Below, piece by piece: positions 32,238 to 33,990 of a stretch of 64,000 nt of DNA. The DNA is taken from the NCBI RefSeq assembly GCF_000710615.1, contig NZ_JDTH01000002.1:1170082-1234081 (forward strand), written 5' to 3'. The notes beneath the pieces were generated by a model. That model did no database searches and had not been told where the DNA came from. It saw only the letters and a list, made by a program, of their open reading frames with translations. The position numbers and the translations under genes were made by a program. The number at the start of each line of letters is the position of its first letter. Within the stretch, counting starts at the first letter, position 1. The DNA is from Haladaptatus cibarius D43 (GTDB lineage Archaea; Halobacteriota; Halobacteria; Halobacteriales; Haladaptataceae).

Positions 32238-32897
32238 GTGCAGAGTCTCGAAGCCGAACTGGAGCGCGCGAACGCACTCGACGTGAGCGACCTCGCGGAC
32301 GCAATCGAGGACATCGGATTCGAATGTACGCGCTGTGGATCCTGCTGTACGAGCGAGGCGGACGACCCCCACACCGCGACGATGTTTCCCGACGAAGTGC
32401 GCGAGCTACAGGACGCGACGGAGTACGACTTCCGGGACGTAGCGCGACCCATGCCCTACGGCCTCTCCGACGGCGACGATGAACCGGAGGGTGAAACGTT
32501 CGAGTGGGCGCTTCAGACTGACGACTGCGGCGACTGCCGATTTTACGAGGAAGACGATGATGGACTGGGCGCGTGTTCCGTGCATCCCGACCGACCGCTC
32601 ATCTGCCAGACGTACCCCTTCAGCGTCGAACTGGGTGGCACGAGTCAGCCGATGGGCGAAGCGGTAGATGAATCCGGAATCGTCCGAGCACACGAATGCG
32701 AAGGACTCGGAACCGACATCGACCGAGAACACGCCGAGGAACTGGCGGACGCTCTCAAAGAGCGTGCAGTCCGCGAACTCGAAGAGGCAATCGGCGTACG
32801 CGACAACTACGAACCCGCGAATCCCGATTCCGGCGAAGTCGTCGTCCATGATTCCGAGGGTGCGAAAAACACGGATGGAACCGAGTACGAGGGGTAG
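32238..32897 (+). CDS. YkgJ-family cysteine cluster protein
   Basis: A 219-residue protein with FECTRCGSCCTSE near the N terminus, DDCGDCRFYEE mid-protein and GACSVHPDRPLICQTYPF towards the end, giving the CxxCxxCC plus later Cys pattern of the YkgJ/Fe-S or Zn-binding family. The start at GTG 32238 (VQSLEAELERAN) is chosen because the longer frame overlaps the MBL gene and reads poorly. The C terminus is highly acidic. It lies 28 bases after the MBL gene and is probably co-transcribed. The biochemical role is unknown. Confidence 0.8.
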   Translation: MQSLEAELERANALDVSDLADAIEDIGFECTRCGSCCTSEADDPHTATMFPDEVRELQDATEYDFRDVARPMPYGLSDGDDEPEGETFEWALQTDDCGDCRFYEEDDDGLGACSVHPDRPLICQTYPFSVELGGTSQPMGEAVDESGIVRAHECEGLGTDIDREHAEELADALKERAVRELEEAIGVRDNYEPANPDSGEVVVHDSEGAKNTDGTEYEG

Positions 32898-33068
32898 GAT
32901 AGCGAGCGGTCGGTGCAATAGCCCGATGATACAACCGCTGGATTTCGACATTCGACACAACCACTAGCGGGGAGCAATTTTCCGCGAGTGAGGAGCGATA
33001 GCGACGACCGAGCGGGCAGACGACTGAATGGAGCAGCGAAGAGCGAAGCTCTTTCCTGCGAAATGAAA

Positions 33069-33159
33069 GAGGAGTGCTTTTGGTCGACCTTTTACAGGAA
33101 GACGGGTCAGGCCAGCGCGAATCGCGCTGGCCCGGCCGCTCGACCGTCGTAAAAGGTCG
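33069..33159. repeat. Left arm of large inverted repeat around the TRAM gene
   Basis: This 91-base stretch is nearly the exact reverse complement of 33661-33756: apart from one 5-base indel there are only a few differences. It contains its own hairpin (CCAGCGCGA/TCGCGCTGG, 33112-33130) and ends 2 bases before the TRAM stop codon. Looser complementarity continues to CGACACAACCACTA (32953-32966). It could serve as the TRAM terminator, a recombination arm or a non-autonomous element end. Confidence 0.75.
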
Positions 33160-33161
33160 GT

Positions 33162-33605
33162 TTAGAACTCTTCGTCGATGATTTCGCCGACGGCAAAGTT
33201 CGATTTCACTTCCGTGATTTCGACCTTCACGCGCTCGCCGATTTCCGCGCCGGGGACGATAATGACGTAGCCGCGTTCGACACGCGCGATACCGTCGCCC
33301 TGCTTGCCGATATCTTCGACTTCGACGTAGCGGATTTCTCCCCCTTCGACGGGTGGTTGTGGCTCCGACGAAACAGGAGTCGGGCCACCGCTGTCGTTTG
33401 TGGATTTCGTCGTCGCCGCCGCCTCGGTTTGGTCGTCGCTCGATTCAGTCTCCGTTTCGCGCGAGATAAGCGCAACACGGTAGGTTTCTCCCGGTTCGAC
33501 CGAACCCGTGTCGATTTCGCGGCGTGGAACTGAGACGACGTATTCGTCGCCTTTGAGAGTAACATCAGCGCTGAACAGACACAGGAGTTTGTCAGAGATT
33601 TCCAA
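33162..33605 (-). CDS. TRAM-domain RNA-binding protein
   Basis: A 147-residue protein. The C-terminal TRAM domain (EIRYVEVEDIGKQGDGIARVERGYVIIVPGAEIGERVKVEITEVKSNFAVGEII, about 90-147) binds RNA in archaeal stand-alone proteins and tRNA-modifying enzymes. The N-terminal 50 residues (MEISDKLLCLFSADVTL...YVVSVPRREID) form a separate beta-rich part seen in haloarchaeal TRAM proteins, and a Ser/Thr/acidic linker joins them. Stand-alone archaeal TRAM proteins are proposed RNA chaperones. The gene and its promoter lie exactly between two near-identical inverted repeat arms. Confidence 0.85.
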   Translation of the reverse strand: MEISDKLLCLFSADVTLKGDEYVVSVPRREIDTGSVEPGETYRVALISRETETESSDDQTEAAATTKSTNDSGGPTPVSSEPQPPVEGGEIRYVEVEDIGKQGDGIARVERGYVIIVPGAEIGERVKVEITEVKSNFAVGEIIDEEF

Positions 33606-33660
33606 GGTCGTAGACCTCCAGTTGAAACCAAGTAGTCAACCATTAAAGAATTATCGGGAA

Positions 33661-33756
33661 CGACCTTTTACGACGGTCGAGCGGCAGGGCCAGCACGATT
33701 CGCGCTGGCCCTGCCCGTCTCCCTGTAAAAGGTCGACCAAAAGCACAGCACTCCTC
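33661..33756. repeat. Right arm of large inverted repeat around the TRAM gene
   Basis: Reverse complement of the arm at 33069-33159, 55 bases upstream of the TRAM start. It holds the hairpin half-sites CCAGCACGA/TCGCGCTGG and GGTCGACC. Complementarity to the left side resumes at TAGTGGTTGTGTCG (33852-33865). The promoter of the TRAM gene must lie between this arm and the start codon (33606-33660). Confidence 0.75.
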
Positions 33757-33990
33757 CCTTCGGTCGTCGCTTGGCCCGCTCGTTCGTCGTTCCACTCCTC
33801 ACTCGCGGAAGAGCTGCTAGCCCGCTGGCGGTTGTGGCGATTGCTGATTTATAGTGGTTGTGTCGCCTGCCGACTCCTGATGGTTAGGTCAGTCGCAGAT
33901 TCTCGGCGGTTGTGTCACTTGCTTATCGCTCCCTCGCGCCGACCTCTCGCTTCGCTCGGTGTCGGCGCTCGGTCGCTGTCGAGAAATGAG
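33757..33990. repeat. Repeat-rich gap downstream of radical SAM gene
   Basis: About 230 bases with no credible gene. It contains GGTTGTG(T/G)CG units at about 33833, 33855 and 33911 and GC-rich GAGCGAAGCGAG-like palindromic sequence at its right end (33948-33975). Parts match the far-left side of the TRAM element in reverse (for example CTCACTCGCGGAA). It is interpreted as the outer part of that element or a second adjacent one. Confidence 0.4.

Follow-up and report, generated by a model that had tools for sequence, protein, structure and literature searches.

The window, the whole 64,000-nucleotide stretch of Haladaptatus cibarius D43 DNA that was analysed, contains a short gene for a TRAM-domain protein, which lies with its promoter between two inverted repeat arms and is flanked by a CxxCxxCC gene and a radical SAM (radSAM) gene. 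The features of the locus are:

32238..32897, + strand: CxxCxxCC (PF03692) gene, the fixed left neighbour, used as orientation reference
32945..33159, + strand: whole left arm, including its weaker outer part
33074-33159: complementary core stretch of the left arm, 93% complementary to 33661-33746 over 86 nt
33074..33158, + strand: putative left boundary-element core, inner end towards the TRAM stop codon; 99 bits
33162..33605, - strand: TRAM-domain protein gene, 147 aa, likely TTG start (Pfam PF01938, E 3e-15)
33606..33660, - strand: TRAM promoter region (CGATAATTCTTTAATGGTTGACTACTTGG...), from comparison of the sequence upstream of TRAM
33661..33873, - strand: whole right arm, including its weaker outer part
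33662..33746, - strand: putative right boundary-element core, inner end towards the TRAM promoter; 106 bits
34006..35784, - strand: radical SAM gene, the fixed right neighbour, whose 3' flank stayed with radSAM through the inversion described below

The inverted repeats reported around TRAM by an earlier, sequence-only reading are real. The arms at 33074-33159 and 33661-33746 are separated by a spacer of 501 nt, the right arm carries a 5-base insertion, TGTGC, directly after the 86-nt complementary stretch, and 2 bases lie between the end of the left arm and the TRAM stop triplet (33162-33164). The weaker complementarity proposed further out was also recovered and reaches about 32945 and 33873, with matches at 32980-32995/33795-33810 (16 nt, 100%) and 32945-32966/33852-33873. 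A gapped alignment of the TRAM flanks extended over approximately 232 nt with 173 identities and a score of 158, compared with a mean of 20 and a maximum of 36 for shuffled sequences. TRAM is the one gene between the arms, as had been claimed, and its promoter region, bounded on the upstream side by the right arm, is similar across Haladaptatus and in Halomicrococcus. Each arm is itself an imperfect palindrome (GACCTTTTAC...GTAAAAGGTC) with a strong predicted fold on either strand (z about -6).

Between the two window arms there are 6 differences, against 7 between each arm and its own positional orthologue, which weakly suggests exchange between the arms; strong homogenisation in the window lineage is only weakly supported. 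At locus L103 of genome G001, the outer arm ends on both TRAM flanks look homogenised (57 nt, 51 identical) and differ from the usual radSAM-side sequence, suggesting arm-to-arm conversion in that genome. Degenerate tandem units of approximately 25 bases (CGGTGACACAACCGCCGGAAATC-like) were also seen in the outer arm parts, at 32927-32970 and 33830-33930 in the window and at loci L103-L110.

TRAM was present in all 40 relatives searched and, at a strict cut-off, in 132 of the 146 genomes of the order. The gene order MAM< PNPOx< MarR> MBL> CxxCxxCC> [TRAM] radSAM< DUF7559> Hsp20> FAD< recurs in about 100 loci; TRAM is a core gene whose position is syntenic in nearly every relative. Stand-alone archaeal TRAM proteins have been described as RNA chaperones (PMC5572242, PMC6705878).

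A dispersed palindromic repeat at gene ends

Near-copies of the arm occur elsewhere in the H. cibarius genome, away from TRAM; the outer arm part likewise recurs, its relative order unchanged, and the repeat was found in all eight other Haladaptatus genomes. A plain DNA search gave almost no matches beyond Haladaptatus. With a covariance model, and on rough E-values, 22 matches were found in H. cibarius, 12-31 in each of the other Haladaptatus genomes, 1-26 in Halorussus genomes, as weaker relatives, and 0-8 in other families. The 40 distinct cores share one common frame, GTGCTTTTGGTCsAGCTTTTACAGGGAG followed by a variable stem and CTCGACCGTCGTAAAAGGTs, in an element of approximately 85 bp whose stem differs from copy to copy and keeps its self-complementarity. 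In 27 aligned copies 92.4% of stem cells were paired, compared with 31-45% when the partners were slid by 1-3 columns, and changes to stem pairs were two-sided in 154 cases and one-sided in 10 (two-sided in slid controls, 21-39). G-U intermediates are scarce, which suggests either maintenance of the palindrome at the level of DNA or a requirement for it on both strands.

A search of Rfam returned no known family, the best matches falling far below the gathering score, and no report of the repeat was found among the listed titles and abstracts of open-access papers. The repeats form many dispersed intergenic palindromes with a covarying stem, and in lying at gene ends they resemble REP sequences, for which roles in termination and mRNA stability have been proposed (PMC3733652). 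Unlike REP sequences, which measure 20-40 bp, the 85-bp Haladaptatus element has a two-part hairpin with a fixed frame and a variable stem.

The placement of the repeat was assessed in 64 copies with gene context. The inner end lay by the 3' end of a gene in 40 copies, 38 of them 1-22 nt from the stop codon, and by a 5' end in the remaining 24, of which 22 were 19-73 nt upstream of the start, mostly 40-60. Convergent junctions outnumbered divergent ones by 25 to 3 (binomial p 3e-5), a count in which the copies are not fully independent, some sharing a junction or being orthologous to each other. One of the 'divergent' junctions, that beside TRAM in G003, results from a gene-calling error; the outer neighbour there is the 3' end of CxxCxxCC. 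T runs in the cores face both ways. Because of this placement at gene ends and the T runs in both directions, the repeat is probably a bidirectional transcription terminator or gene-boundary element. In Haloferax, termination sites are marked by stretches of T and in some cases by hairpins, one of which terminated 59% of transcripts when tested (PMC7237163). The Haladaptatus repeat is similar to the Haloferax volcanii terminators in having T stretches and hairpins, which in the latter lie near transcript ends; those were mapped from 3' ends, whereas the present signal is a repeated palindromic element known from sequence alone. A conserved terminator pair, which the sequence-only reading had offered as an alternative, fits the arms well, and it coexists with inversion.

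Several further arrangements of the repeat were observed. Outward-facing core pairs approximately 0.35-0.9 kb apart, at L204:1516-2036, L242:1548-2059, L225:1561-2510 and L212:1492-2481, fill junctions between convergent genes, as if they were a larger element with a hairpin at each end. At L045:3205-3260, compared with the orthologous site in L056 and L065, the outer frame is kept and the whole hairpin core is replaced by another palindrome (TTTTTATCG...CAATAAAAA in place of TTTTACAGGGAG...). Fixed ends around a variable palindromic middle are also a feature of integron attC sites; a reading along these lines was set aside, TRAM being a syntenic core gene.

Orientation of TRAM among relatives

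Haladaptatus species differ in the direction of TRAM while every other gene keeps its position, and among loci with conserved gene order TRAM alone changes direction. In one genome per species, TRAM adjoined CxxCxxCC in 121 species of 44 genera, pointing one way in 70 and the other way in 51. Orientation was uniform within 42 of the 44 genera and mixed only in Haladaptatus and Halorussus. Both mixed genera belong to the repeat-carrying family, an association with the repeat that is suggestive only, these genera being among the best sampled.

A tree of the neighbouring genes from 52 species required 4 changes of TRAM orientation, at least 3 of them forced by well-supported branches. In a wider, quicker tree of 85 loci, whose alignment includes TRAM itself, 6 changes were required, 5 of them forced. 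Exactly one change falls within Haladaptatus, on the branch leading to G008, H. pallidirubidus, H. litoreus and the window (100/100), and all four species of this inverted clade share the same TRAM orientation. Horizontal replacement of TRAM was considered and rejected: by TRAM identity the members of the inverted clade come first (96, 94 and 92%, then 87-90%), in line with the neighbour tree.

The idea that this segment inverts is thus supported on an evolutionary scale, from the species comparison and the tree; the idea of a mobile cassette is not supported. Since neither the clade nor 42 of the 44 genera show any variation in orientation, the pattern points to rare evolutionary inversion and not to a flickering switch; the locus looks like a slow inversion hotspot at which TRAM has turned rarely but repeatedly. 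No report of a haloarchaeal gene inversion was found in the open-access literature.

Proposed role of the arms in the inversion

The explanation that we favour, and consider fairly probable as a whole, is that the arms are boundary elements, probably terminators, that enabled a single ancestral inversion of TRAM. The arms would be two inward-facing copies of the genus-wide palindromic element, one at the 3' end of TRAM and the other immediately before its promoter. Their near-identity and inverted arrangement would allow the intervening DNA to turn by homologous recombination or by template switching during replication, and this would have happened a single time, in the common ancestor of H. 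cibarius, H. litoreus, H. pallidirubidus and G008. In Haladaptatus, TRAM lies between arms in each of its two orientations (inverted-repeat scores 158, 87, 84, 63, 39, 36 and 30), with the inner ends facing TRAM wherever the core was read. The stretch beside the radSAM stop codon kept its place next to radSAM whichever way TRAM points (scores 73-80 against a null maximum of 27; G003, G004 and G007), which places that breakpoint in the arm region. Within the arm downstream of TRAM, a 46-bp segment is inverted between G003 and G004 (loci L077 and L078; 44 of 46 positions match the reverse complement); short repeats in this sequence thus do give rise to inversions. From these observations we infer that the arms mediated the inversion. 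Against this, TRAM is also inverted in lineages in which arms are not now visible, such as the Natrinema clade, which has the window's TRAM direction, and the arms would therefore not be needed for every event. The left arm is missing from G006 and G008, both in the inverted clade, so that its presence at the time of inversion is deduced from outgroups, and the arms are too diverged for the breakpoints to be mapped exactly.

Those same inversions in lineages with no visible arms, and an element placement that suits terminators, would also fit a pair of conserved terminators that took no part in the event, with TRAM flipping by other means, for example because a flip is tolerated in a monocistronic gene. 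We regard this as unlikely, given that the two genera of mixed orientation both fall in the repeat-carrying family and that the unmoved radSAM-side sequence puts a breakpoint in the arm region. A present-day switch that flips within populations is very unlikely. Flanking inverted repeats, as in an inverton, are present (86-bp arms, 93% identical, 501 nt apart), and TRAM orientation does differ between species; however, the four species of the inverted clade all have TRAM in one orientation, as does each of 42 of the 44 genera, and no recombinase was found among the marker genes flanking TRAM at the locus. There was no evidence for an expression switch either: the TRAM promoter lies inside the segment, so that a change of expression on flipping is not obvious, and orientation is fixed in the clade.

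The sequence-only reading had also proposed a gene carried inside a non-autonomous element. That TRAM is the cargo of such an element (MITE), with the arms as its ends, now seems hardly credible. The arms are indeed dispersed repeats with inverted termini, but TRAM is near-universal, syntenic and present without arms outside the family. The repeat mostly occurs without TRAM, its copies elsewhere standing alone or as outward pairs at gene ends. The TRAM-arm unit has no clean outer boundary by which a target-site duplication could be defined.

The favoured explanation, inversion between the arms, has parallels elsewhere. The mammalian filamin-emerin region undergoes recurrent inversion between inverted repeats. 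Such inverted-repeat-mediated recurrent inversions are documented in humans (PMC3961182), and the TRAM segment is similar in lying between inverted repeats and occurring in both orientations among lineages. It differs in being one archaeal gene with arms of approximately 0.1-0.2 kb, and its inversions were counted across an entire order. Switching of the replication template from one repeat arm to the other homogenises the arms and inverts spacers (PMC8604942), and it creates and maintains hairpins (PMC8794818). The TRAM locus resembles these cases in its homogenised arms, its inverted spacer and stems whose two sides change together; the process has been described in yeast genes, where the repeats are short, and in RNA hairpins. 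A broader proposal, which we consider unlikely, is that the bidirectional palindromic boundary elements of Haladaptatus and Halorussus form a family not described before, in which template switching renews the perfect pairing in the DNA itself. Gene boundaries would thereby become prone to inversion, and individual genes, TRAM among them, would flip time and again, also at low frequency in living populations.

As read from these genome comparisons, TRAM is a core gene between two palindromic boundary repeats that has been inverted rarely but repeatedly and is not mobile. It provides a clean natural archaeal case of one gene reversing repeatedly within a frozen gene order, at a locus where the repeats visibly rewrite themselves. 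The locus allows inverted-repeat recombination or template switching to be tested as drivers of small haloarchaeal inversions, and the repeat family is a defined candidate for archaeal bidirectional terminators.
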